Shown here in pieces: positions 1 to 30,130 of a stretch of 35,266 nucleotides of DNA. A program made the translations under genes and the position numbers. The notes beneath the pieces were generated by a model, which ran no database searches, had not been told where the DNA came from, and saw nothing but the letters and a program-made list of their open reading frames with translations. This stretch comes from Pyrinomonadaceae bacterium (GTDB taxonomy: Bacteria; Acidobacteriota; Blastocatellia; Pyrinomonadales; Pyrinomonadaceae), in assembly GCA_023717605.1 (NCBI GenBank), contig JAMQPH010000679.1, positions 1 through 35,266 of the forward strand. Direction: 5' to 3'. Numbering within the stretch: the first letter of the stretch is position 1; each line of letters opens with the position of its first letter.

Positions 1-3000
1 TTGGTCTCGGTCGTACTCCACGGCCATCCGCTCCGGCCCAAATCTCGCTTGTTCTTCGAAGAGTTCGGCCACCGTCTTCTCCACCTCGAACGGACACGCG
101 GTTTGGTTCCACTTAACGAGCACTTGCTCTCGCTCAGCGCCACTCATAACCGGCAGCTCACTCAACCGCTGCCCGCAATCTTCCACGATAGCCTCAACCA
201 ACGACTCGAAATTGCGCAGCATCCGCTCAGCTGTCTCACCCTCGAACAAATCGCTGTTGTACTCGATGCTCAGCTCAATGCCCTCTCCGATGGCCTTTGC
301 TTCGAGCACCAGGTCGAACATCGCGACACCTTCGGGCGCGGGCAACAACTCGATTTCCAGTTGCTGCACCCGTTTTGGCTCCACTGTTTCCTGCAGCACA
401 AACATCGCTTGAAACAGCGGCGTGTGACTCAGTGCCCGCTCCGGCTGCAGTACCTCTACCAACTTTTCAAACGGCACGTCCTGATGGTCGTAAGCTCCCA
501 GCGCCGTCTCCCTTACCCGACCTAACAGCTCTGCGAAACTCGGATTTCCCGAGAGGTCAACGCGCAGCGCCAGGGTGTTCACGAAGAACCCTACCAACCC
601 TTCGATCTCCGGTTGCGTGCGATTGGCAATCGGCGCCCCGACAACCAGGTCAGACTGTCGCCCGTAACGGCTGAGCAAAACTGCGAACGCCGCCAGCAGC
701 GTCATGAAGAGCGTCGCGTCATGTTTGTGAGCCACTCCCGTCAGCGCTGCAGTAGTACGCGGCCCCAACGATAGCTTGCGCCTCGCACCCGCGAACGTCT
801 GCACCGGGGGCCGGGGGTGGTCCGTAGGAAAATCCAGCAGCGCGGGCGCTCCCTGCAACTGTTCCTTCCAGTAGCTTAGTTGGGCCTCCAGCGCCGCCCC
901 TTGCAGCCATTCTCTCTGCCACACCGCGAAATCGGCGTATTGCAGTGGCAACTCCGGTAGCGGCGATAGCCGTTCTCTTGAGTTAACCTGCGAGAAGTTT
1001 TCATAGAGTACCGCCAGCTCTTCCATCACTACGCCCATGGACCATCCGTCGGTGACGATGTGGTGCATGGTCAGTACCAGCAGATGTTCCTGCTCAGCCA
1101 CTCGCACCAGCAACGTCCGCACCAGTGGTCCATTCGCAAGATCGAAGGCATACCGCGCCTCGCTTTGAATCAATATTTCGGCCTGCTGATGACGCTTACA
1201 GTCAGACTCGCGCCGAAGATCGATTGAGGGCAACTCCATCCGCTCAGGCGCTGGCAAGATCTTCTGTGTCGGCTGGCCATCAACCGAAGGAAAGACCGTG
1301 CGCAACGATTCGTGCCTGTGAATGATCTCGCCGAGGCTGTCGGCGAGTGCCCGCTGGTCCAGCTCACCCCGCAGCTGAATCGGGAAGGTAAGGTTGTAAT
1401 GGGATTTTCCGGGGTTCAGCTGATCGATGAACCATAGCCGTTGCTGGGCGAAGGAAAGCGGTAGCTTTGCATCGCGCCGAACGGCACCGAGAGGCGGTGC
1501 CTGCAGTTCTCCTCCGGCTCGCGTCGCCCTCTTGATGCTAACCGCCAACGAAGCCACGGTAGAATCTTCAAAAAGCTGACGCAGCGGCAGCTCAACTTGA
1601 AAAGCGATGCGCAGCCTCGTGATCACCTGCGTGGCCAGCAACGAATGTCCGCCGAGTTCGAAGAAGTTGTCCTCCCGACCGACCCGACTTACGCCCAGTA
1701 CTTGTCCGATGATAGTTGCCACTACCTCTTCAACCGCATCTCGCGGCGCCACGAATCCGGTCGAGAGCTCTGGTCTCTGCTGATCGGGCGCCGGCAATGC
1801 GCGCCGATCCACCTTGCCATTGGCGGTGAGCGGTAGTTCACCCAACAGCATGAAGGCCGCCGGGATCATGTAATCCGGCAGCTTTGCTTTCAAAAAGGTC
1901 CTTAATTCCCGTCGGGCAGGCGCCGGCTGTTGGGCCACTACATAGGCCACCAGCCGCTTGTCACCCGCAACGTCTTCTCTGACGATCACGGCCGTCTCAC
2001 GAACCGCCTCGTGATCATTTAGCGCCGCCTCGATCTCGCCGAGCTCGATGCGATATCCGCGCAACTTCACCTGACTGTCGATCCGACCTAGAAATTCTAT
2101 CTCACCGGTGGGCAGGTAACGCACCAAATCGCCGGTGCGATACAAGCGCTCTCCCAACTCGCGGCTGAACGGGTTAGGTACAAACTTTTCCGCGGTCAGC
2201 TCCGGGCGGTTCAAATAACAGCGCGCCAACCCGGCACCGCCTGTGTACAACTCACCCTCTTCTCCAACCTCCACCGCTTCCAGCTGCTCGTTGAGTACGT
2301 AAACCTGGGTACGGCTGATCGGCCGGCCGATGGGCACGGTGCTTTCTCCCACCGCGCTGACAGATTCCATTCCGTAGCAGCAGGTGAACGTGGTGTTCTC
2401 TGTTGGTCCATACCCATTGATCAACTGCTTTAGAGGCAGCCTCTCCAGCGCCTTCTTCACATGCTTTGGCGACAGCACGTCGCCGCCGGCCAACAAGTAC
2501 TTAAGTCCGTCCAAATCTTCAATGTTCTCGTCCACCATTTGGTGAAAAAGCCCTGCCGACAACCACAGCGTCGTTACTCCATGTTGCCGCACCACCTGGC
2601 CCAACTCGCTCAACGACAGTTGACCCGGCGGACAAATCGCCAACCGTCCTCCATTTAGCAGTGGTGCCCACAATTCCAGCGTCGAGGCGTCGAAAGACAC
2701 CGGCGCAAACTGCAGGAACACGTCAGTCTTCGCGAACTCGAGGTAGTTTGTGTTCCTGACCAACCGGACCACGGCACGATGATCGATGCAAACCCCTTTC
2801 GGGCGACCGGTTGAGCCGGAAGTGTAGATAACGTAGGCCAGGTGGTCAGCAGAAGTCGTCTGCGGAGGATTCTGCTCGCTGAATTCATCGCCGCACTCCG
2901 CCGGGTTGTCGAGACAAATGAGCTGTGCATGATGGTCTGGGAGTCGCTCCCTCAGGTGCTGCTGTGTCAGCAGTACGGACAGATTCGTATCTGAGATCAT

Positions 3001-17700: not shown

Positions 17701-18160
17701 GCGTCGCGCGCAAAAGCGGACCATGCTCCAGATCAAACGGACGGTGTGCTTCCTCAGCCACCCGCTCGCGTAGTTCGGTTTCGCTCCAGCCCGCTGCAGG
17801 CGTCACCTCAAAGTGGGTCTGGCAGTGCTCGTGCACCTCCTGCAGGTGCTGTCCATTGCGCACTCCATAAGTAGTTCGCAGAGAGGGATGGCGATCGACC
17901 AGCGTCTGAAACGTGCGCTCCAGCGCGGGAACGTCCAGAGTTGAACGGATTCGGCCTGCGTACATCAGATTGTATGCAGGGCTCGTCGGATCGAGTTGGT
18001 GCAGGAACCAAAGGGCGCGCTGCCCGTGCGACAACGGGTGAGACGATGTCGATTGCGTGGCCTTTTCGCGCAGCAGATTTGCCAGACGCTCACGCTTTTC
18101 TTCAATAGAAGGCCGCGACGGCGTCGATGGCTGGAGGGCAAGGGCCGATCCGTTACTCAC
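14765..18160 (-). CDS. NRPS1, nonribosomal peptide synthetase C-A-PCP with atypical motifs
   Basis: 1131 residues starting at a GTG that shares one base with the PKS2 stop (TAGTG). It should couple the polyketide acyl chain of PKS2 to the first amino acid. The C domain (about 40-480) has HHIVIDF (His169, His170, Asp174) where the usual motif ends in DG; Phe175 replaces Gly, something I recall from C domains that accept polyketide chains. The A domain (about 515-1010) has YTSGSTGQPKG (664-674), but its YRTGDL motif reads YRTFDL (Phe896) and ELGEIE reads ELGGIE (Gly928). Specificity residues by hand are DGEDLGVIN(K). The framework resembles Glu/Gln-type domains, but acidic residues at two pocket positions could instead favour a basic side chain, so no substrate is assigned. 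The PCP motif is FFDAGGHSLL (Ser1061). The C-terminal tail ETLSDAEVNKLL resembles those of PKS1 and PKS2. Confidence 0.93.
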   Translation of the reverse strand: MSNGSALALQPSTPSRPSIEEKRERLANLLREKATQSTSSHPLSHGQRALWFLHQLDPTSPAYNLMYAGRIRSTLDVPALERTFQTLVDRHPSLRTTYGVRNGQHLQEVHEHCQTHFEVTPAAGWSETELRERVAEEAHRPFDLEHGPLLRATLFISGPKDYVLLLTTHHIVIDFPSIAILMYEIFAVYAAEKAGASVPLAPLKFSYSDFIRWQTKMLAGAEGEEHWVYWREKLGGELPALNLPTDRPRPVVQTYRGAVHKFELGRELSQQLNTLAQAEGVTLYMLLLAAFQALLHRYSGQDDILIGSPMGARGRVEFENIVGYFANPVVLRADLSADLTFRDFLTQVQESVLGALDHQDYPFPLLVERLQPTRDSSRSPLCDVMFVLQRSRFADATSDDTSPIEAILLAENESLLDTGGLAMEAFEVDERVSQVDMTMMLVEGGGRIAASVPYNADLFDAATIERFGDHYRTLLESIVADPGKRVRALPLLTATERRQFAKWNETEAPYPVQQCIHRLFEAQSARTPEAVAVVFKDQSLTYRELSARANQLAHTLRSLKVGPDQVVGLCLERSVEMVVAVLAILKAGAAYLPLDPQYPSGRLAFMIEDAEVTALVTREKLADSLPEHGAAVICLDRDRAEIERQSVDNPESEVRAENLAYVIYTSGSTGQPKGVMIQHRSAINLAFAHQEAIYREYAGRRLNVSLNAPLAFDGCVERLMLLLFGHTVHVIPEEVRQDPSELLTYVEANELEVLDFTPSQLRLLIDAGMLSRPGFATRLVLVGGEAIDEQLWQLLAGNSRIDFFNVYGPTECTINSAVCWIKAAPEKPNIGWALSNMQLHLLDEAHQVVPLGVPGEIYVAGVGLARGYLNRPELTAERFVPNPFSETPGGRLYRTFDLARRLPDGNVEFLGRVDDQIKIRGHRIELGGIENVLSAARGVKEAVVVVDDQGAGDKRLVAFVVANPTPAPLQLSEIKDHLRRSLPEYMVPVGFVQVESLPLTVNGKLDRHALAKLEQHALVDENSFVAPRNEMEERLAEMWADVLRLPRVGVNDNFFDAGGHSLLATQLVMRIRQAFEIELPLRSIFEAPTAAGMSVRVLQQQLSGVDKASLVEMLDRLETLSDAEVNKLLTT

Positions 18161-21100
18161 TAGGCTATCTCCTCCTCAGTTTCGAGTTCATTGAGCAGTT
18201 GATCGACCTGTTCATCTGAAAGCTCGTGGAAGTTGGCGAGCAGTTGGGCGGCTCGTGATTTATCGAGCAAGTTGTCGTCTGCAATTGGCTCGGCTTGTTT
18301 CTGGTGATGGCTGTTGGAGTTTGAAGGGCCGCTCGCGGTGGGCGGATCAGTCATGATTTGCTCTAAGAGTATGGTGGTGAGTTCCGCGACGGTGGGCCCT
18401 TGCAAGAGGACCACCATCGGCAAGGTCACGCTCAAATGAGCCTCAATCCGGTTTTTGATCTCCACGCCCATCAGTGAATCGAGACCCAACGAATTGAGGG
18501 AGATATCCAAACGCAGCTGCGCAGGGTCGAAGCGAAACACGCCCGCGATCTGTTCGCGTAGAAATGAATCCAGCGCCGCGGGTCGTTCTTCCGGCGAAAG
18601 GCCCAAAATGGCTTCCCGGGTCAACCCCAGGCTTTGCACCTGGCTCTCTTCCGCGCTGCTGTCCTCCTGGGCCACTTCAGCCAGAAGTGGTGAGCGGCTG
18701 AGAGAAGAATAGAACATTCTCCACACTTCCCAATCGATGGGCATCACCGCCACCTGCGCTCTATCCTGTCGCAACAGTTTGCCGAGGACTTCCAAGCCGT
18801 GGGCTGGCTTGATGCTTTCTATGGTCTTCAATCCGCCACGAGTCGATCCGGCTTCGGCCCGCGCGGCCATTCCCACATCCGCCCATGGTCCCCAGTTAAT
18901 GCTGAGAGCCTTTTGGCCGCGCCGCTGCCGGTAATGGGCAAGCGCATCCTGATAAGCATTTGCGGCGGCGTAGCTGCCCAGTCTGGGCGAGCTCAAGAGC
19001 GAAGAGGCGGAAGAGAAGCAGACGAAGAAATCGAGATCCTCGCGGTCGAGCAGGCGATGAAGTAACCAGCTTCCGGCCACCTTCGGCCGCAACACGCGCA
19101 TTAGTTCTTCGGCCTCGAGCTCGACCAGAGTCTTATCAAGGAATTGACCTGCGGCGCAGATAACACCGCGGATGGTCGGCCACCCTTCACGACGGTAGCT
19201 CTCCAGGAACGAGGCCAACTGGTCCTCATCGGCGATATCCACAGCAGCGTGATGAACGCTTGCACCGAGTCGCTCCAGCTCTAGTACGGCCGCGACCTGA
19301 CGCGCCAGACTGGTTTTATCTTCGACCCCGCTCCATTCCGAACGCGGTGGCAGCGCGGTGCGCCCAAGTAGAATGAGCCGTCGCGCACCCTGTTGGACCA
19401 TCCAGCGAGCAACTTCCAAACCGAGGTCGCCCAATCCGCCCGTGATCAGATAGCTGCCATCGGCTCGCCACTGCTGCCCGACCAGTTTCGTAAGCTGCGA
19501 CTGTTGGCGTACTAGCCGAGCGACATAGCGGGTACCCTGGCGAAAAGCAATTTGATCTTCGTTATCGGCGCGGTCGAGCTCCGCACACAGTTCAGCGGCT
19601 GCCTCATCAGCCGCAGCCTCAGGGTCAAGATCAATCAGGCCACCCCAGAGGTCCGCGTGCTCTCCCGAGATCGTGCGGCCCAGTCCCCACAGCGGCGCCT
19701 GCGCCACAGCCAGGCCGTCGCCTGAGCCAACTGGCTGAGCGTTTTGAGTGATCAACCAAAGCCGCGGTTTCTCACGCCATCTTTGGTCCACCAATCCTCG
19801 CAGCAGATGGAGCAAACTGCCGCAGTTGCGCAACTGGTCCAGATCGAGCGACGAAGCCGTGGCCACTTCTGTAGGTTGAGTATCAAGGCCCCAGAGATAA
19901 ACGATGCCGCGACACGCACCCTCGGACTTAGCGATCAACGAATCGAGCAGTTGGCGCATGTCACTTAGTTGGGCCGGCCGGATGGTGAACGACTTGTCGC
20001 TCATCCGTTCTTGCTTTTTGCCGGCAAACACTGACACGCAATTCTCACCCTGCATTTCCAGACGCGAGGCCAGCGCTTTACCGACACCGTGCTGGTCAGC
20101 AAAGATGATCCAAGTCCCCGCCTCATCTCTGGAAGCGGGCCGCTCGGTCTCTTCCGCTCGCGCCCTGGGTTGCCATTGAAGTTCGTACAACCATTCATCA
20201 AGGTTCTTCAGATTTTCACCCTGGGGTTCATAATCCAAGCGCTGGGCCCGCGCCCCGGTGATCTGTACCGCCACCTCACCATCGCCGTTGAAAAGTGTGA
20301 GGTCGCCTTCGAAGATATCCGCGCTCTCTGACTGCGAACGACGGGTAGCGTGACTCCATAGTGCGGTGCCCGGCCGGCAATGGACCTGCAAGCGCTCTAT
20401 CCTCACCGGCATCAGTGCCCGACCTTCATCTGCCGCGGTTGCTTCGCCTTGCAATAGCTGACTCCAGCCAACCTGCAAACAGGCATCAAATAGCGCCGGA
20501 TGAAACTGATAAGCGTGCGCTTCGGCAGCTATTTTTTCGGGAGCATGAATCTCAGCCAGCGATTCACCGTCACGCTGCCAGAGTTTTCGAATTCCCTGGA
20601 AGGTGGGACCATATTGAAATCCCCAATGTTCAAGCCGGCGATAGAAATCTGTCCCCTGCAACTCATCGCAACCGGCTTGAATCCTTGCGGTCTCCAATCT
20701 CTGCTGTGGTTGGCGATCGCCCGCGAGACTGATTTCCCCCGCCGCATGTAAGACCCACCGCTGCTGCTGATGTTGAGCTTCAGCTGAACGGCTGTAGATC
20801 TCAAAAGAAGCTTCGGCGTTGGCGCCAAGAGTCAGGACCAACTGTACGAGGCGGGCACCCCGCTCCGGCAGGAAAAGGGCTCGATGAAAATCTACGTTGC
20901 GGAGAATCGTTGAGCCTTCGCCAAGAATCTCTTGCGCCGCAGATAATGCCATCTCCAGATATGCCGTTCCCGGCAGCACGATCGCGCCTTGAATCTGGTG
21001 ATCAACAAGATAGGGCAAGTGCTGACGGTCCAGGACCGTCTCCCAGAGGTGTATGCCGCCGGACGCCAAAGTGGAGTGATGGCCCAACAGTTTGTGACCC

Positions 21101-23988
21101 TGTCCATTCCCGCCGGCAATCGCAGACACCAAATGTGCATGGCCGTTGCTGGGAGCGGTTTCCGCCCAGTATCGCTGTCGTTGCCAGGCGTACGTCGGTA
21201 GGGCGACACTTCTACCGCCCTGGTTCACTTCTTCCCATTTTGGCGTAAAGCCATTTACATACAGCTGGCTCAATCCGGTGAGCAACTGCTCGCTTTCATC
21301 CATCGACCGCCGTAGCGATCCTATGACCACCGGCTCGGTTGCTCCACCACCCCAAGCGGGCTGCCCGCTTGGGGACCCCGGGGTTGTCTGGGATGCGAAC
21401 CGCCGCGCTATTTGTCGGGTCGCCGCACACAACACTGGATGCGTTCCCACCTCCAGATACGCTGTATGCCCCGCGCTTAACGCTGCCTCAACTGCCTCGT
21501 TGAAGCGCACTGTCATACACATCTGCCGACCCCAGTAACTGGCCCCATAGTCACCAGCGACAGCTTCGCGACCACTCAGCGTCGAATAGATTGGCAGTTG
21601 CGCCGGCCTGATCCTGATCTCGCTCAGCGCGGACACTAACTCTTCCGCAAAACCATCCATTTGCCGGCTATGAAAGGCGTAGTTGCCGGTGAGCATCCGG
21701 CACTCGACGCCGCGCGAGCTCAACTCGTCCACCGCTGAGGGCATGGCCTCCACTTCTCCACTGATCACGCTGGTTGTTGGACCGTTACAGGCCGCCAAAC
21801 TAAGCCGCCTTCCGTAACTGTTGATAAGTTCTCCGGCGGTCGTCTCGTCCAGCTCAACGGAAGCCATACGTCCCAGTCCCGTAGCCTGCTGCATCAGCCG
21901 GCCTCTTTCACAGACAACCATGATGGCGTCTTCGAGACTGAGTAGCCCTGCCACATGCGCGGCGGCCACTTCGCCGATGCTGTGGCCGATAACGGCTGCT
22001 GGTTCGACACCCCAGGCGCGCCATTGCGCCGTAAGCGCAAGCTGCAAGGCAAAGATCGCGGGCTGGGCAATCTCTGTCTGGTGCAATCGGGAAGCAGCTT
22101 CGTTGGCGAAGAGCTCGTCGATCAGTGACCAGGTGACCTGGGAACGCAGCAACTGGTCACACTGCTCGATGCTCGATCGAAAGGGGTCGAGATGCATTAG
22201 CCCGCGACCCATGCCCGGCCATTGCGTCCCCTGACCTGAGTAGATAAAGACGGGTTTGCCGAAAGAGGGGCGTTTACGGCCAGTTACGACAGCGGGGTGT
22301 GGTTGAAACAGCGACACCGAAGTTCCGGCGCCGGCAGCCGCCTTGGTCGGGGATACCGAGTTCAGAAATTGAGCGACCTGCTCGCTGGATCGCGCGGCGA
22401 ACGCTAGTCGGAAATCATGGTGGTTGCGTCCCGCGCCGACGGTATGACAGAGATCTGACAATTCGATCCCGCTTGCTTCCGCTGAGGTTAAGAAGCTGTA
22501 ATAGCCGCCTGCCAGCGCTCGCAATGCTTCCTCGCTCTGAGCTGAAAGCGCGAACAACTGCGCCGGAGCACGCTCGTAATTTCGCGAGACCAACCGGGGG
22601 CCTTCTTCAACAACAAGGTGGGCGATCGTGCCGCTCAAGCCGAACGAACTAACACCGGCCAGCCGCGGTTTGTCGGTGCGGGGCCAGGGCGTCACTTCGC
22701 GCGGGATTATCACATTTGTATCGCCAAGGGTGATGTGCGGATTCAGTTCATTGATATGCAGGTGAGGAGGAATTTCTTCGTGCTGCATGGAGAGCACGAC
22801 TTTGATCAAGCCTGCTATGCCCGAGGCAGGTTCAAGATGTCCGATGTTCGTCTTAAGTGAACCAACGAGCAAAGGCTGCTCGGTTGTACGTCCCTGGCCC
22901 AACACGGCACAGAGAGCATGCATCTCAATCGGATCGCCAAGCGGAGTGCCGGTGCCATGGGCTTCGACGTAGCTGATCTGCGATGGCTCGACCCTCGCGC
23001 TCTTCAGGGCCTCGCTAATGCATCCCTGTTGTGCCGAACCGCTGGGCACGGTAAAACCACTGCTTCGTCCGTCATGATTAACAGCCGAACCGCGAATCGT
23101 TGCTAATATCCGGTCACCATCGGCGAGCGCATCTGATAGTCGCTTGAGCACGACGACACCGCATCCCTCACCGCGAACGTAACCGTCGGCGGCAGCGTCG
23201 AAGGTTCGGCAGCGACCGGTGGGAGACATGGCCCGGGCCCGGCTCAAATAGATGTGGAGGTCCGGCGCGAGAATCAGGTTAACGCCACCGGCAACTGCGA
23301 CCGGACACTCTTCATTTCTAAGACTCTGACAAGCCAGGTGGATAGCCACTAACGACGAAGAACATGCTGTGTCAATTGCCACACATGGTCCCTGCGTGCC
23401 AAGGACATATGACAACCGGCCACAGGCCGAACACGGTCCATTGCCTGACCCGTAGTAACTATCAATGCGCGAATAGTCGCCGAGCGTGATCAGGTGATCG
23501 TAGTCATGCGTCATCATGCCGACAAAGACGCCGGCCTTAGTGCCGTGGAGCTTGTGCGGCGCCTGGCCAGCGTTCTCCAATGCTTCCCAGGTGACCTCCA
23601 ACAACAACCGCTGTTGCGGATCCATACTTAGAGCTTCACGGGGCGAGATTCCGAAGAAGGATGGTTCAAACTGATCCACGTTATCGAGAAAGGCGCCCCA
23701 GCGCGTATACATTTTGCCTGGCGCGTCGGGGTCGGCGTTGAAATAGGCATCCATGTCCCAACGACCGGCGGGCACTTCGCTTATTGTGTCCACTCCATTA
23801 CGCAGCGTTTGCCAGAGGCGGTCGGGACTGTCTGAAGAACCCGGAAAACGACAGCCGATGCCGACAATAGCAATCGGCTCGCTCTTCGAGCGTTCGGCGG
23901 CCGTGACCTTCGCCTGCATTTCCTCGAGCGCCAGCAGTGCCTGTTTGACAGGCGATAGAGTGTTAGTCCGTTCTGAGGTGCTACTCAT
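18160..23988 (-). CDS. PKS2, type I polyketide synthase KS-AT-DH-KR-ACP
   Basis: 1942 residues; the ATG overlaps the PKS1 stop by four bases (ATGA). An N-terminal helix (about 10-34, [18 protein letters not shown]) is a typical coiled-coil docking segment. KS about 38-465: Cys209 in [10 protein letters not shown], His344, His384; the usual GTNAH reads GTIAH (453-457). AT about 578-860: Ser670 in [10 protein letters not shown], motif YAFHS (770-774), mixed but more malonyl-like than methylmalonyl-like. DH about 967-1250: [10 protein letters not shown] (His997) and Asp1168 in DACLQ. KR about 1510-1710: TGGLGDLG, Tyr1673. [13 protein letters not shown], Ser1838. No ER or methyltransferase is seen, so the module should make a trans-enoyl unit. 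Between the AT and its C-terminal linker it carries about 21 residues absent from PKS1, encoded by a palindromic repeat. The tail contains [12 protein letters not shown] before NRPS1. Confidence 0.95.
21344..21381. repeat. Coding-sequence palindromic repeat, copy 1 (in PKS2)
   Basis: A 38-bp element containing a perfect 11-bp inverted repeat, CCCCAAGCGGG at 21350-21360 and CCCGCTTGGGG at 21364-21374, with a 3-base loop. It lies inside PKS2 at the end of the AT domain and encodes the extra segment around residues 870-882 ([13 protein letters not shown]), absent at the same place in PKS1. It aligns without gaps to copy 2 at 33 of 38 positions (counted by hand), yet is read in a different frame. 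Confidence 0.75.
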
Positions 23989-26900
23989 CTCATACCCTCG
24001 GTGAATGATAGTTTCTCAGCCAGCAACTGCATGGCTTCATCCTCGGACAGCTCCTCGATCTGCTGCCGCCGCCCAACACTGCCGTTGTCTACCACCCCAG
24101 CGCTACCCGCTTGAAGACCCGGGTCCGAAAAAACCATGTGCTCGGGACTTGAACTTTCAAGCTGAAGTACTGCTGTGAGCAGATGCCTCGCCAGACTCTC
24201 AATAGTGGGATGATCGAAGACGACGGTCAGGGGAATGGACTGCGTCAGGCTGGCTTGAATGCTGCGACTCAATTCGACGGCCATCAAAGAATCCATTCCC
24301 ATCTCGAACAGACCACGCTGTGGGTCCAAGTCGTTTGCTTGCGTGTGGCCCAGGACTCTACCGACGGCACTCCGAACGTGGTCTACTAGGAGGGACATTC
24401 GTTCCCGAGCTTCGGCTTCATCGAGCCGCTGCCGGAAGCTGGCCGCTGACGTCGGTCGCCCTTCATTGTCAGCAGGCTGTGCGGCCTTCGCGCCCGTGAA
24501 AACGGCCAAAGCCCGTTTGCCTGCCGCGCTTAAGGGCATCACGCCCACCTGAGTCGAAACCACACCCAATAGTCTCTCCAGCGCCTTGATTCCCTGCTCC
24601 GGGGCAAGGCGCTTCAGGCCGGACAAGGCAAACTGCTCCTTCTGGCCGGGCTGACCGGCGGCCATCCCCACTTCCGCCCACGGTCCCCAGTTAATGCTTA
24701 AAGCGGGAACGTTGCTGAGACGGCGATGCCATGCCAGACCATCCAGGAAAGCATTGGCTGCTGCGTAGTTTCCTTGCCCGGGTGAACCAACAAGCGAAGC
24801 GAGCGACGAGAAAAGAATGAAGAAGTCCAGAGGCGCAATAAGTGTAGCTTGATGCAAGTTCCAGGCGCCGGCGATTTTGGGCGCGGCAACTTGGTTGAAC
24901 CGCTCCTGGTCCAACTGCAGCAAGATGCCATCGTCCAACGCACCCGCGGCATGGACCACGCCGCGCAACGGCGGCATGTCTAGCGCCATCTTGGCCAATA
25001 CCATGCGCACGTCTTCGTCGCGAGTGACGTCGCCCCGCAGGAGCATTACTCGCGCGCCGGCTCGCTCCATGAAGTTGATCTTTTGCTGAGCTTCCGCCGA
25101 GGCCGCGTTTCGTCCCAACAACACCAGGTGACGTGCTCCCTTCTCAATCATCCAGGCCGCCACTAACAACCCCAGGCCGCCGGCGCCCCCGGAAATCAGG
25201 TAGCTGGCATCAGCACGAATCGGGACAGCCGATTGTTTTTCTTCCTCGGTGGGGGTGTGCGCCGCCAGATTTGCTACGCGGCCGACATACAGGGTCTCGT
25301 CTCGGAGAGCAAATTGAGTTTCACCTTGTGGGTGCCGCAACAGGTCGCACAGAGCCCGTGCTTCATCCAGGCTGTCACCGTGAGCTCCGTCAAGGTCCAC
25401 CAGGCGGCATCTCAGCTCCGCGTGCTCGTGGCGAATTGTTCTTCCCAGCCCCCAGATGGCTGATTGCCCAATCGACAACTGTTTATCTTGCGGGCCGGTG
25501 TACTGCGCGCCGCGAGTAACGAGCCAGAGTGGTGGCGCTTCGCGAAACGCCGCGCGGACGAGACCCTGGACCAGATGCAGCACACTCAAAGCTCCCAGCT
25601 CCTGGGCTCGCTTGAGCGAGTCAAGAGTGGTCTTTTCCGGTCGAGCCGCGTCCATGGCCCAAAGATGCACAACGCCGCGGCAGACAAGACCGTGACTGGT
25701 AAAAGCATCATGCAGCACTCGCTGTACTTGTTCGGGGGCCAAGGGATTGATCTGATAGCTTCCCATCTCATTGCTGCGAAAAGAATCAGCGGCTGTTACC
25801 AAGATGCTGGTCTCACCTCGCACCGCCAACTCCAGCTTCAGTGCTTCGCCCGCGCCATCAGCGTCGGCAAAGATCAACCACTTGCCCGGTCTGTTTGAGC
25901 CGACTTCTGCCTCAGGCCTTACGAATGAGGCTTGCGGTTCCCATCTCAATTCATAGAACCAATCGCTCTCGTCTTCATTCGCCCGCGGCAGAGCGCCTTG
26001 TACCTTTTGCGCCCTTAGCCCCTCGATTGCGGCGACGAGATTGCCGTCCTCATCGAACAGAGACACGTCGCCGGCGACGGTCGCCTTACCGTTACCCACC
26101 ACCCCGGGCGGGCTGCCGGCTTGGCTACCCCGGTCGCCGTTGACCACCACCGCCTGATTGCCAAGTTGGGCGTGACCCCAACGACCAGAATGCGGGTTAT
26201 CAAGCAAGCGAATCCTGTCGATCCCCACCGGCAAATAGGTCTCGGAGGTATCGGAGTTCGCGCCATTCAGTTGTCCTGGCAAGGTGCTCGCGAGAATCTG
26301 AAAGCAAACGTCCAACAGCGCTGGATGAAGCAGATAATCTCTTGCTTGCGCTTTGACTGTGTCCGTCGGTTCGAGGCGCGCTACTGCCTCCTGCTCACCC
26401 CGCCAAAGCTGCTCAACACCCTGAAAACTGTGGCCATACTGCAAGCCACGCTGGGCAAGCGCTTCGTAAAATTCTGTGCCTGACACCGTCTGTGCACATC
26501 TGCGGCGAACGACTTCGAGGGCCGCCTCGTCGTCTACGCGCGCGGGCTCGGCACAACCATTTCGCATCTTCCCACGGGCGTGTAGGGTTGCTTCCTGCTG
26601 CGGACCGCAGTGATCTGGAAGCTGACTTAGGAAGCGAAAGGAAATCTGCTGCAGTTCGTCGCGCGTGGCTACCAGTTGCAGTCGCAAGGTGGACCGCTCC
26701 GGAATCAACAGCGCTTTTTCAAACTCTATCTCCTCGATCATGTGCTTTCCGACGCCAAAGAGTTCGTTGGCCGCGGCCAGAGCCATCTCGACATAGGCAG
26801 CCGCCGGAAAAATGACGCTGCCGCGAACACGATGGTCTCCCAGGTAAGGGAAAAACTCAGTATTGAGGTCTGTCGCCCAGAAATAAGTTTCAGCGTGAAC

Positions 26901-29690
26901 GGCCGACTTAAGGCATTTACCCAGCAGCGGATGAGTCGCTTGCTCGCCGCCCAGGCCCGGAATTCTTCGTTGCATTGCGTCCTGTCTGGATTGCTTCCGG
27001 TCTGTACTGAAGTGCCCCTCAAAGAAGTAGCGTTGTCGTTGCCAGGCGTATGCCGGCAGCGCGACGCTTTGCCCTCCAGGATTAACGTTGGGCCACTGTG
27101 GCGTGCAGCCGCTCACGTAGAGTTGGCTCAACCCACTGAGCAACTGCTCGCTCTCGTTCATTGAGCGCCGCAACGAGCTCACCACCACTGCTTCTGCTCC
27201 CACGATCTGTCGCACTGCTGCGCACAAAACCGGATGCGGGCCAACCTCAACATAACCCGCATGGCCCGCATTGCACGCTGTCTCGACCGCCTCTTTGAAG
27301 CGCACGGTCGTACACATTTGCCGGCCCCAATAGGCGGCTTCATAGTCTCCCGGCGTGCCCGCAAGTTGCCCACTCACCGTCGAATAGATCGGCAGCTGTA
27401 ACGAGCCGGTGCTGATCTCACCGAGCGCGGCCGCCAACTCCTCCGCAAGACCCTCCATTTGCCGGCTGTGAAACGCATAGTTCACCGGCAGCATCCGGCA
27501 GGAAATCCCCTGCGCGGCCAATTCGCCAACCAATGCGGTAACCGCATGCCCTTCGCCGCTGATCACGCTTGTCTGGGGAGCGTTGCAAGCAGCCAGGCTT
27601 AGTCGTCCCTCATATCTCACGATCAGTTGTTGGGCCGCTGCTTCATCGATCTCCACGGAAGCCATGCGTCCCTTGCCGGTAGCCTGCTGCATCAAACGAC
27701 CGCGATGAAAAACGATTCTGATCGCATCCTCCAAATTGAGCAGTCCCGCAATCTGCGCCGCAGCCACTTCGCCGATGCTGTGGCCGATAACCGCAGCCGG
27801 CTCGATACCCCAGGCGCGCCATTGCGCAGTGAGGGCGAGTTGCAAAGCGAAAAGCGCAGGCTGGGCAATCTCTGTCTGGTCCAAACGTGAAGGGCGGGAG
27901 GCCTGATCAGCCAACAACTCATCGATCAGGGACCAATCGGAGTAGGCGCGCAGTAGTTGGTCACACTGTTCGATGGTCGAACGAAAGGGCTCAAGGTGCA
28001 TCAGTCCGCGGCCCATGCCGGGCCACTGCGTTCCCTGGCCCGAGTAGATGAAGACGGGCTTCACGGCAACAGCACGCTTACGGCCGCTCACCACAGCCGG
28101 ATGGGGTTGAGACTTCAACACCGAATCGAGCACTTCCGCAACTTGCCCTATGGACCGAGCGGGAAAAGCGATCCGGTAGTCATGATGGCTGCGCCGCTCA
28201 GCTAACGTATGGCAAAGGTCTGGCAATGAGACCGAAGCGCCCTGATCTGTTAGATATTGGTGATAGCGCTGCGCGAGTTCAGTAAGAGCCTCGGGACTGC
28301 GTGCCGAAACCGTAACCAAGCGGGGGAAATCTTTCTCAGTCACAGTGGCTTCGGTGCGGGCGGCGGCGGCGGTTGCGGGAGATCGCGGCGTCTCTTCTAC
28401 AACGACATGAGCGTTGGTGCCACCCAGACCGAATGAGCTGACACCGGCCAGCGCCAATTGTCCATCGTTGGGCCAGGGCGCCAACTTTTCCTGAACGCGA
28501 AGCGGCAGCTCTGCAAACGCGATGTAAGGATTGGCCTTCTGGTAATGCAGACTTGGGGGAATCTCGCGATGTTTAATCGCCAGCGCGGTTTTGATCAAGC
28601 TGGCAATGCCGGCTGCAGACTCCAGGTGACCAAAGTTCGTTTTTACGGAACCGATGGCGCACAGTCTGCCCGGCTCCCGTTCGGTCGACAGGACAGTACC
28701 CAATGCTTTTGCTTCGATCGGATCGCCGAGAGGCGTGCCGGTCCCGTGGGCCTCAACGTACTGAACTGTAGCGGGCGAAACGCCGGCCCGGCGGTATGCC
28801 TGACGAAGAACCGCGATCTGCGCCCAACGATTCGGCGCCGTCAACCCATTGCTGCGACCGTCCTGATTGACGGCACTGCCGCGAATCACACAGTAGATGC
28901 GATCCTGGTCAGCCACCGCATCTGACAGCCGTTTCAGTACCACGACACCAGCGCCTTCGCCGCGGACGATGCCGTCGGCGCGCGAATCAAAGCTCTTGCA
29001 GCGTCCATCGGGTGCGTTCAAATTCGCCTTGGCGTAAAAGATGCTCATTGTCGGTTCCAGCATCACGTTTACGCCGCCCGCGATAGCAATCGGCGCAGAT
29101 TCCTGTTGCCAAAGGCTCTGACAAGCGAGATGAACGGCTACCAACGACGAAGAGCAGAGCGTATCGACAACCAGACTCGGGCCCTGCAGATCGAGAAGAT
29201 AGGAGATGCGGTTGGCTATGATCGCCGCTGAACTGCCGGCGCCTAGATAGGGATCCACCAGTTCGGGATAAGGCATGTGACGCTGGGCATGATCGTCATT
29301 CATCACGCCGACAAAGACGCCCGTACGCGACCCAGACAATTGCTGCGCGGTCTGGCCCGCATCTTCCAGCGCCTCCCAGACTACTTCCAGCATGAGTCTC
29401 TGTTGCGGATCCATACGCACCGCTTCGCGCGGCGAGATGCCAAAAAAGTGCGGGTCGAAGTGGTCCACGTCGGCCAGGAATCCACCCCAACGGGCGTTTG
29501 TCTTACCTGGAGCTTGCGGGTCCACATCGTAGTAATCAGCGAGCCTCCAGCGACTCGGCGGGACTTCGCTGATCGCATCGACACCGTCGCGCAGTAAATG
29601 CCAGAACGCTTCCGGATTCTCAGCCCTGGGGAAACGACACCCGATACCGATAATCGCGATAGGCTCCATTTTTCTCATTTTCTTTGCCAT
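23985..29690 (-). CDS. PKS1, type I polyketide synthase KS-AT-DH-KR-ACP
   Basis: 1901 residues from the ATG at 29690, which shares one base with the ACP gene stop (TAATG). The frame opens further to 29807, but those 39 codons overlap the ACP gene and do not look like PKS. ATGs at 29678 and 29669 are alternative starts. KS about 8-430: Cys179 in DTLCSSSLVA, His315, His355. AT about 546-830: Ser638 in [10 protein letters not shown], motif YAFHS (738-742), probably malonyl. DH about 918-1235: HRVRGSVIFP (His953), Asp1127 in DVCFQ. KR about 1495-1680: SGGAGGLG, LDD (B-type) at 1585-1587, Tyr1642. ACP: GMDSLMAVEL, Ser1801. No ER is present, so this module should extend the ACP-bound fatty acyl group by C2 and dehydrate it. 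Two linkers, DH-KR and the one after the ACP, carry copies of the palindromic repeat. The tail has EELSEDEAMQLL. Confidence 0.94.
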   Translation of the reverse strand: MAKKMRKMEPIAIIGIGCRFPRAENPEAFWHLLRDGVDAISEVPPSRWRLADYYDVDPQAPGKTNARWGGFLADVDHFDPHFFGISPREAVRMDPQQRLMLEVVWEALEDAGQTAQQLSGSRTGVFVGVMNDDHAQRHMPYPELVDPYLGAGSSAAIIANRISYLLDLQGPSLVVDTLCSSSLVAVHLACQSLWQQESAPIAIAGGVNVMLEPTMSIFYAKANLNAPDGRCKSFDSRADGIVRGEGAGVVVLKRLSDAVADQDRIYCVIRGSAVNQDGRSNGLTAPNRWAQIAVLRQAYRRAGVSPATVQYVEAHGTGTPLGDPIEAKALGTVLSTEREPGRLCAIGSVKTNFGHLESAAGIASLIKTALAIKHREIPPSLHYQKANPYIAFAELPLRVQEKLAPWPNDGQLALAGVSSFGLGGTNAHVVVEETPRSPATAAAARTEATVTEKDFPRLVTVSARSPEALTELAQRYHQYLTDQGASVSLPDLCHTLAERRSHHDYRIAFPARSIGQVAEVLDSVLKSQPHPAVVSGRKRAVAVKPVFIYSGQGTQWPGMGRGLMHLEPFRSTIEQCDQLLRAYSDWSLIDELLADQASRPSRLDQTEIAQPALFALQLALTAQWRAWGIEPAAVIGHSIGEVAAAQIAGLLNLEDAIRIVFHRGRLMQQATGKGRMASVEIDEAAAQQLIVRYEGRLSLAACNAPQTSVISGEGHAVTALVGELAAQGISCRMLPVNYAFHSRQMEGLAEELAAALGEISTGSLQLPIYSTVSGQLAGTPGDYEAAYWGRQMCTTVRFKEAVETACNAGHAGYVEVGPHPVLCAAVRQIVGAEAVVVSSLRRSMNESEQLLSGLSQLYVSGCTPQWPNVNPGGQSVALPAYAWQRQRYFFEGHFSTDRKQSRQDAMQRRIPGLGGEQATHPLLGKCLKSAVHAETYFWATDLNTEFFPYLGDHRVRGSVIFPAAAYVEMALAAANELFGVGKHMIEEIEFEKALLIPERSTLRLQLVATRDELQQISFRFLSQLPDHCGPQQEATLHARGKMRNGCAEPARVDDEAALEVVRRRCAQTVSGTEFYEALAQRGLQYGHSFQGVEQLWRGEQEAVARLEPTDTVKAQARDYLLHPALLDVCFQILASTLPGQLNGANSDTSETYLPVGIDRIRLLDNPHSGRWGHAQLGNQAVVVNGDRGSQAGSPPGVVGNGKATVAGDVSLFDEDGNLVAAIEGLRAQKVQGALPRANEDESDWFYELRWEPQASFVRPEAEVGSNRPGKWLIFADADGAGEALKLELAVRGETSILVTAADSFRSNEMGSYQINPLAPEQVQRVLHDAFTSHGLVCRGVVHLWAMDAARPEKTTLDSLKRAQELGALSVLHLVQGLVRAAFREAPPLWLVTRGAQYTGPQDKQLSIGQSAIWGLGRTIRHEHAELRCRLVDLDGAHGDSLDEARALCDLLRHPQGETQFALRDETLYVGRVANLAAHTPTEEEKQSAVPIRADASYLISGGAGGLGLLVAAWMIEKGARHLVLLGRNAASAEAQQKINFMERAGARVMLLRGDVTRDEDVRMVLAKMALDMPPLRGVVHAAGALDDGILLQLDQERFNQVAAPKIAGAWNLHQATLIAPLDFFILFSSLASLVGSPGQGNYAAANAFLDGLAWHRRLSNVPALSINWGPWAEVGMAAGQPGQKEQFALSGLKRLAPEQGIKALERLLGVVSTQVGVMPLSAAGKRALAVFTGAKAAQPADNEGRPTSAASFRQRLDEAEARERMSLLVDHVRSAVGRVLGHTQANDLDPQRGLFEMGMDSLMAVELSRSIQASLTQSIPLTVVFDHPTIESLARHLLTAVLQLESSSPEHMVFSDPGLQAGSAGVVDNGSVGRRQQIEELSEDEAMQLLAEKLSFTEGMR
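24089..24123. repeat. Coding-sequence palindromic repeat, copy 3 (PKS1 C-terminal linker)
   Basis: A 35-bp relative of copies 1 and 2, three bases shorter and with 30 of 35 aligned positions equal to copy 1 by hand count. It encodes about residues 1857-1868 (PGLQAGSAGVVD) in the linker after the ACP. It is read in the same frame as copy 2. The palindrome is partly decayed. Confidence 0.55.
26096..26133. repeat. Coding-sequence palindromic repeat, copy 2 (PKS1 DH-KR linker)
   Basis: A 38-bp sequence matching copy 1 at 33 of 38 positions. It encodes part of an approximately 19-25 residue insertion (around 1186-1199, GDRGSQAGSPPGVV) between DH and KR of PKS1. PKS2 lacks this insertion at the same place. 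Its inverted repeat is imperfect compared with copy 1. Confidence 0.65.
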
Positions 29691-29992
29691 TAGACGGCGA
29701 CAGCCGGCGATGGCCGCTGCTGTAATTCTTCCGCCAAGTGCTGGGCCAGAAGTTCGATCGATGGGTAATCCCAGGCGAGAGTTGGTAAGAGCCGCATCCC
29801 GAGCCAATCTTCCAGATCGCCCGTCAGACTGACGGCCGCCACCGAGCTTAGACCATAGCTGGCGAAAGGCTCGCCCACATCGATGTCAGACGGTCTAAGG
29901 TCCAGCGACTTGGACAGGTTGGCGATCAACCACTGTTGAATGCTTGACAGAGTAAGGGTTCTGTCTACTGCGAGTGTCTGCGTAGCGTGCAT
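29690..29992 (-). CDS. Stand-alone acyl carrier protein
   Basis: 100 residues, typical for a discrete carrier protein. The phosphopantetheine site is in YGLSSVAAVSL (about 47-57), where the second Ser of the pair aligns with the modified Ser of GxDS; having Ser in place of Asp is, as I recall, common in carriers paired with fatty acyl-AMP ligases. It is expected to take the acyl group from the ligase encoded two genes upstream, present it to the dehydrogenase, and donate it to the PKS1 ketosynthase. A purine-rich AGAAGAGAGAAG precedes the ATG by 6 bases. Its stop overlaps the PKS1 start by one base. The 169-base gap before it holds a long inverted repeat. Confidence 0.92.
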   Translation of the reverse strand: MHATQTLAVDRTLTLSSIQQWLIANLSKSLDLRPSDIDVGEPFASYGLSSVAAVSLTGDLEDWLGMRLLPTLAWDYPSIELLAQHLAEELQQRPSPAVAV

Positions 29993-30022: not shown

Positions 30023-30130
30023 CAGAACCGGGAGCGATAGCGACCGGGTGAGTTTTCGGGTTTAGCGTTTTTCGGGAAACGGCAAGGCTTTTGATGTCGA
30101 CGCGAAGGGTCGCTACCGCTCCCGGTTCTG
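30023..30130. repeat. Intergenic inverted repeat with 23-bp arms
   Basis: The arms are 30023-30045 and 30108-30130, complementary at 22 of 23 positions (one A opposite C), and separated by 62 bases. It sits between the dehydrogenase and ACP genes within the operon. No T-run follows on the minus strand, so it is not a standard terminator. It could be a REP/MITE-like element or an RNA hairpin affecting downstream expression. It is not related in sequence to the repeats in the PKS genes. Confidence 0.7.

Follow-up and report, generated by a model that had tools for sequence, protein, structure and literature searches.

A mobile hairpin of about 37 bases in some soil Acidobacteria, found in REP-like palindromes and in frame within genes

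Why do two sister polyketide synthase (PKS) genes carry similar short DNA segments at different places and in different codon phases? The DNA analyzed here (the window) is a 35,266-nt stretch from a Pyrinomonadaceae bacterium, contig C520 (JAMQPH010000679.1) of a 7.38-Mb genome in 909 contigs. It holds a mixed NRPS/PKS cluster with two sister KS-AT-DH-KR-ACP genes on the minus strand, PKS2 (18160..23988, 1942 aa) and PKS1 (23985..29807, 1940 aa). A preliminary description had proposed that a small mobile palindrome entered these megasynthase genes three times. The coordinates and sequences of its three segments were confirmed, all on the plus strand: copy 1 in PKS2 (21344..21382; residues 869-882, near the end of the AT domain match), copy 2 in PKS1 (26096..26134; residues 1225-1238, DRGSQAGSPPGVVG) and copy 3 in PKS1 after the ACP (24089..24124; residues 1895-1907). 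We observed that the unit is 39 bp and not 35-38 bp as first given; copy 3 measures 36 bp through a 3-nt deletion. Copies 2 and 3 share a codon phase and copy 1 is in another, as had been described.

Copies 1 and 2 are identical at 33/39 bases and match the family form at 38/39 and 34/39 bases, respectively. A core pattern allowing up to 3 mismatches matched only these two copies in the window, compared to a mean of 0 in 100 dinucleotide shuffles of the window. This is far beyond chance. Copy 1 folded into an intact 11-bp stem (hairpin core 21350-21374, plus strand) with a CTG loop, in agreement with the 11-bp hairpin and 3-base loop proposed earlier (−14.8 kcal/mol, z −3.7; 0/200 shuffles as good). 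The family fold was gone in the decayed copy 2 (z +0.96) and in copy 3 (z −1.12), which has lost the stem. A covariance model built without the window copies recovered copy 1 (63.6 bits, E = 2.2e-15) and copy 2 (28.9 bits, E = 9.2e-6) and missed copy 3. Copy 3 was the best other match in the window when the family consensus was the query (score 37, best of 60 shuffles 35) and when copy 1 was the query (38, best shuffle 35). With copy 2 as query it scored only 27, below the best shuffle (34). Because it stands above the shuffles with the consensus and below them with copy 2, we regard copy 3 as a probable, not certain, decayed copy of the family. At gathering scores Rfam gave no match in the window, and plasmid records gave no match to copy 1 plus its flanks.

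The preliminary description expected further copies in the host genome, and these were found. The core pattern matched this genome 8 times, two of them in the window. The covariance model gave 12 matches, comprising 6 strong ones (copy 1 among them), copy 2, one weak match (E = 0.022) and 4 reverse-strand echoes; one genomic copy, on contig C92, belonged to the model set, and its score is not independent. Another genome, G001, had 46 core-pattern matches. The core occurred in 9/16 genomes of the genus, the window's own included, and in 17/99 genomes and 3/29 genera of the family. Across the phylum it was present in 5/396 sampled genomes, all five from the same family. A scan of named genome contigs returned at least 115 stretches, and all 115 titles among the matches listed read Acidobacteria, Blastocatellia, Pyrinomonadaceae, Chloracidobacterium or Luteitalea. 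Viral contigs held zero exact core matches. Three copies (L104, L117 and L148) lie in a metagenome-assembled genome titled Luteitalea sp. Dino_bin50, inside a GGCGCCCC/GGGGCGCC palindrome and with AA at either end of the copy. Either the range of the element is wider, or this bin is mislabelled or mixed. The hairpin of about 37 bases is real and mobile, and has spread through some soil Acidobacteria as many dispersed copies.

We collected 147 distinct oriented copies, 86 of which match all 24 fixed positions. The plus-strand consensus reads N-S-C-A, CCCC, four variable bases, GGG, the CTG loop, CCC, four variable bases, GGGG, ACCCCG, S and N. The arms differ between the 147 copies yet match within each copy. 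Covariation was assessed in 37 sequences, part of 60 chosen for diversity with the window copies left out. In these, 91.5% of cells were paired, and changes on both sides occurred in 66 cells (25.0 in shuffles) and in 7/13 pairs. The covariation score was 0.320 compared to 0.086 in shuffles, and fell to 0.052 or 0.028 when the partner was slid by one base. The outer pair was C-G in 70 and G-C in 38 of 118 distinct sequences, and therefore a short second stem closes across an asymmetric A/ACCCC internal loop. This loop and second stem may mark recognition by a protein. Arms that match within a copy and differ between copies could also come from replication slippage or from template switching at hairpins, one arm serving as template for the other without a dedicated enzyme. 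Templating by itself does not, however, explain the conserved CTG loop, the ACCCC bulge or the outer pair.

We compared the insertion sites in the PKS genes with their homologs. The earlier proposal placed all three copies in permissive linkers, which does not hold for copy 2; its residues fall inside the Pfam PS-DH match (1095-1271) and not in the DH-KR linker. The sister PKS does lack the segment at sites 1 and 2, as proposed, but what is missing exceeds the element: 21 residues at site 1, and 11 + 8 residues in two gaps at site 2. The element accounts for only part of the extra length at both sites, and therefore other indels add to it. The alignment was made without the plasmid PKS homologs (1317 records). 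In it, the element peptide at site 1 occurred in none of the 17 other aligned rows, in a few of which (such as L253, L256 and L258) the aligner put other residues there. At site 2 it occurred in none of only three other covering rows (PKS2, L244 and L245), and for site 3 few homologs were available. Homologous PKSs with these linkers at sites 1 and 2, which the preliminary description had named as a refuting outcome, were thus not seen among these rows. Old insertions of the element, and not functional linkers, would explain the odd segments in both PKS genes.

To place copies relative to genes across the family, we used a dicodon score. Among the 147 copies, 13 scored as coding, 118 as non-coding and 16 lay too near an end, compared to 1246/3000 random positions that scored as coding; the thresholds miss true in-gene cases such as window copy 1 and nadC. 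The element is depleted in genes but present there. Twelve of the 13 coding-scored copies are antisense to the gene, and the nadC copy, outside the 13, is sense. Copies lie inside the Pfam domain match of nadC (L178), of a DUF3417 protein (L127) and of a Ser/Thr kinase (L137). In three other genes the copy lies between domain matches or at the end of one: a transketolase (L051), an AMP-binding enzyme (L118) and an AMMECR1/LigB protein (L159). In these Pfam-supported genes the element is read in at least four strand-and-frame combinations. Both strands and several frames are read, and therefore the DNA is the conserved part, as had been argued from the window, and not the peptide. In the L137 kinase reading frame (1-1503, minus strand), about 38 residues (82-119) are unaligned against kinase structures, and this stretch holds a REP plus the hairpin. 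In L013 (G000:C564) a copy lies in frame just after a putative signal peptide, in an open frame of 540 residues with no Pfam match.

These counts bear on whether the segments might instead be convergent Pro/Gly-rich linker peptides. The PKS peptides at the element do have the appearance of flexible linkers. The spread over strands and frames in Pfam-supported genes speaks against convergence, and it is already refuted by the non-coding copies (118 of 131 classifiable), which leave it a vanishingly small chance.

The cleanest proof of insertion, by comparison of orthologous sequences, is presence and absence in nadC. Here a 12-column gap relative to PDB 1x1o coincides with the element. Among best matches in the genus (two genomes, G001 and G002, gave none), exactly 39 extra in-frame bases were present in 4/14 genomes (G010, G007, G005 and G006) and absent in 10/14, the window's own included. 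Relative to the intact form, the four copies keep 39, 36, 36 and 34 of the 39 bases, and 11, 8, 10 and 8 of the 11 stem pairs. We read this as probably one inherited insertion in which the hairpin decays while the frame stays open. Copies 2 and 3 in PKS1 look like nadC in this respect, with a hairpin that seems to be decaying in a frame that is open.

We searched the retrieved loci for empty sites by joining the 12-nt flanks of each copy. An uninterrupted site was matched for 93/145 copies, some on a single loose match, and for 52/145 none was found. Shuffled flanks gave 16 matches, ten of which were swaps within one REP family. The empty sites include unrelated palindromes (GCCCTCCCTNACGGTCGGGCT, GGGAAGGTGGGCTTGCCCCCGC, GCGGACGGGACGTCCGC, GCAAACTAACAGTTTGC and GAAAGCCATAGGCTTTC). 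The host repeat REP A, with the core GGGAGCGGTAGCGACCGG, occurred uninterrupted 42 times at up to 1 mismatch in 1.42 Mb of retrieved loci, overlaps included. In 25 listed cases it was interrupted at one point by the hairpin; these include repeats from overlapping loci and represent about 16 distinct places. Within 300 bp of a filled REP A we observed an uninterrupted inverted REP A in 18/33 copies, and a direct-orientation one in none of the 33. The window has an uninterrupted inverted pair of its own between PKS1 and the next gene (30032..30047, plus strand, 1 mismatch to GAGCGGTAGCGACCGG; 30106..30121, minus strand, 2 mismatches), and 4 REP A matches at up to 3 mismatches compared to 0.45 expected. 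Overall, the element lives mostly in non-coding repeats, many of them REP-like palindromes. The earlier proposal that a mobile palindrome enters megasynthases in frame thus finds support for mobility and for in-frame entry into genes (nadC), and none for a preference for megasynthases. As side observations, G065 (about 6.0 Mb) has 289 exact REP A cores, compared to 11-82 in the other 16 hairpin carriers, and L091 (G001:C36), on a 4.4-kb contig with a hairpin copy of its own, has six REP A, in both orientations, in a span of about 1.4 kb.

Insertion points were then related to the fold of the host palindrome. A perfect flank stem of at least 6 bp was found in 23/143 copies (3.3 expected). On folding, at least 6 pairs formed across the junction in 75/143 copies, compared to 51.4 (maximum 67) in shuffled pairings. 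Among 14 folded host palindromes, the insertion point was in the loop in 5 (one of which hardly folds), 1-3 nt off it in 5, 4 nt from it in 1, and not at the apex in 3. Apex targeting is real for part of the copies, and hence partial.

The association with REPs raises the possibility that certain REPs contain the hairpin as a built-in second storey, which spreads only with them and by their own machinery. In keeping with this, REP A accounts for 33/144 copies and another REP family for 13, and the exact REP A core was found in 17/17 hairpin-bearing genomes compared to 26/82 others. However, REP A is wider than filled REP A (43 compared to 15 of 99 genomes, and 9/29 compared to 3 genera), and the hairpin also occurs in several unrelated palindromes and at sites with no visible REP, in nadC and the PKS genes. 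Since nadC already weakens it, we hold such a built-in storey to be very unlikely.

To define what is inserted, we measured the net gain at filled REP A. The gain was 39 bp in 21/25 listed cases, 40 in 2 and 42 in 2; the usual gain at known empty sites is 39 bp. Slippage or template switching could account for the many insertion sites that are palindromes, but the net gain is too constant for it, and with the conserved loop, bulge and outer pair we find it an improbable source of the family. We tested all left/right position pairs in the flanks for dependence, with no site chosen beforehand. In 144 copies the top three were the complementary outer pair and, at spacing 39, the identities −5/34 and −6/33. 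Among the 98 copies that lie in neither REP A nor REP B, −5/34 was still second and −6/33 dropped to fifth. Both bases of a 2-bp direct repeat agreed in 73/144 copies (shuffle mean 27.5, maximum 41). With one copy per flank cluster they agreed in 20/62 (mean 10.1, P = 1e-4), and flank singletons gave a weaker signal (14/51 compared to 8.8, P = 0.022). The alternative spacing 34 agreed in 15/62 cluster representatives, and this signal probably comes from the element's own C-rich end (CCCC). The duplicated bases are most often CT or CC. The window copies have no perfect 2-bp repeat in their flanks (copy 1 CC/GT, copy 2 CC/CG). Given the identities at spacing 39, the 39-bp gain is therefore best interpreted as 37 bp together with a 2-bp duplication of the target, and we infer that the repeat is a mark of transposition.

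We next consider the candidate mover. The hairpin could be a REP proper, mobilized by a RAYT (Y1 transposase); the preliminary description had advised a search for a RAYT or other transposase gene associated with the family. Y1 genes are common: 14 matches in the window's genome (10 over cut-off), and matches in 27/30 relatives. The three Y1-free genomes (G009, G013 and G067) lacked both REP A and the element, a suggestive pattern in a small sample. The conserved internal loop would suit single-strand recognition. Against this, no Y1 gene was tightly flanked by the element in 14 loci of the window's genome or in 50 further stretches; 13 of these 50 came from element-free genomes, some share a gene with another stretch, and four or more were picked because the element was on the contig. 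Strong copies occurred in 5/50 Y1 stretches, at distances of about 0.7 kb or more, and one Y1 gene has a copy on each side, at 0.9 and 7.8 kb. L205 was considered as a Y1 gene flanked by REP A and was rejected: both REPs lie on one side, ~0.9 kb off. Y1 genes also occur in genomes that lack the element. The position table of 147 copies has no conserved GTAG or CGTC tag, and GTAG occurs as part of host REP A, not of the hairpin. Y1 transposition is not known to leave a target duplication, which does not fit the candidate 2-bp repeat. Mobilization of the hairpin as a REP by a RAYT is thus unlikely.

How does the hairpin compare with known systems? Elhai et al. in 2008 reportedly described very small mobile hairpins of cyanobacteria that nest in other repeats; by that description they resemble the present hairpin, and they belong to another phylum. 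In the parts of the sources on which this comparison draws, GTAG/CGTC-tagged REPs are 20-40 bp dispersed palindromes, mostly intergenic and some in frame in genes, and a few families (T. roseum GTAG-23, A. variabilis GTAG-15 dimers) are reported inserted within palindromes (PMC3733652). The hairpin resembles REPs, as far as these parts describe them, in being short, in many copies, mostly non-coding, sometimes in frame and nested in palindromes. It differs in having no GTAG/CGTC tag, in entering many palindrome families, in its 2-bp flank repeat, and in that no REPtron was found for it among the Y1 stretches examined. Rickettsia palindromic elements (RPE) are described as palindromes of about 150 bp that have a conserved peptide and lie in frame in genes which are likely still functional (PMC3733652, PMC10969869). 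Like RPE so described, the hairpin lies in frame in conserved genes and is absent from homologs (nadC, transketolase, PKS); unlike them it is 39 bp, read in several frames, mainly in host repeats, and in another phylum. Full insertion sequences are described as targeting REPs at a fixed position (PMC1525189). The fixed REP position is shared; the hairpin is 37 bp and gene-free, whereas those are full IS elements. MITEs, given as 70-300 bp (PMC3733652), are by these accounts likewise non-autonomous and hairpin-forming, with a candidate target duplication (PMC3733652, PMC10969869). The hairpin is smaller than such MITEs and its arms are hypervariable; across the set it shows the candidate duplication, which is weak in singletons and absent at the window's copies. 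In the same phylum, Koribacter versatilis has TIR repeats with tyrosine transposases (PMC3733652). These are likewise a repeat family of the Acidobacteriota, tied to a Y1-type transposase; compared by description only, the hairpin differs in not lying at the ends of the Y1 genes examined.

Intragenic REPs, Rickettsia elements, IS in REPs and a few REPs inside palindromes are thus already in print (PMC3733652, PMC10969869, PMC1525189). The portions covered of the open-access literature on REP, RAYT and palindromic elements of Acidobacteria held no report of this hairpin family; subscription papers lay outside this scope. Measured against the sources as far as they were drawn on, the hairpin works like a REP or an RPE, without the REP tag and without the size and peptide of an RPE.

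Taken together, we consider it likely that the element is a non-autonomous mobile hairpin of ~37 bp, inserted in trans with a 2-bp duplication, favoring REPs and usually preserving the frame in genes. A protein supplied in trans would recognize the hairpin by its 11-bp stem and the 2-bp outer stem across the A/ACCCC internal loop, and would insert it with a 2-bp target duplication; we infer both this enzyme and a single-strand step. Preferred targets would be other palindromes (REPs), with insertion at or near the apex in a considerable share of the host families. Insertions in genes would usually keep the frame, because 37 + 2 = 39 is divisible by three and stops are rare in the unit, after which the hairpin would decay while the frame stays open. 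Stop codons occurred in 32/708 frames of 118 distinct sequences, compared to 30% in random 39-mers, and this low content is partly an effect of GC content. A stronger proposal, to which we would give a little short of an even chance, is that this 37-bp hairpin is among the smallest transposable units: moved in trans by an enzyme that would read its stem and ACCCC bulge, preying on REPs near their apices, preserving the frame and feeding 13-residue segments into proteins.

In this family a minimal mobile hairpin nested in REPs can be counted, and it comes with orthologous presence and absence in nadC, a candidate duplication and a length that preserves the frame. This makes it possible to test what moves REP-like palindromes that have no visible RAYT partner, and how often such units add segments to proteins.
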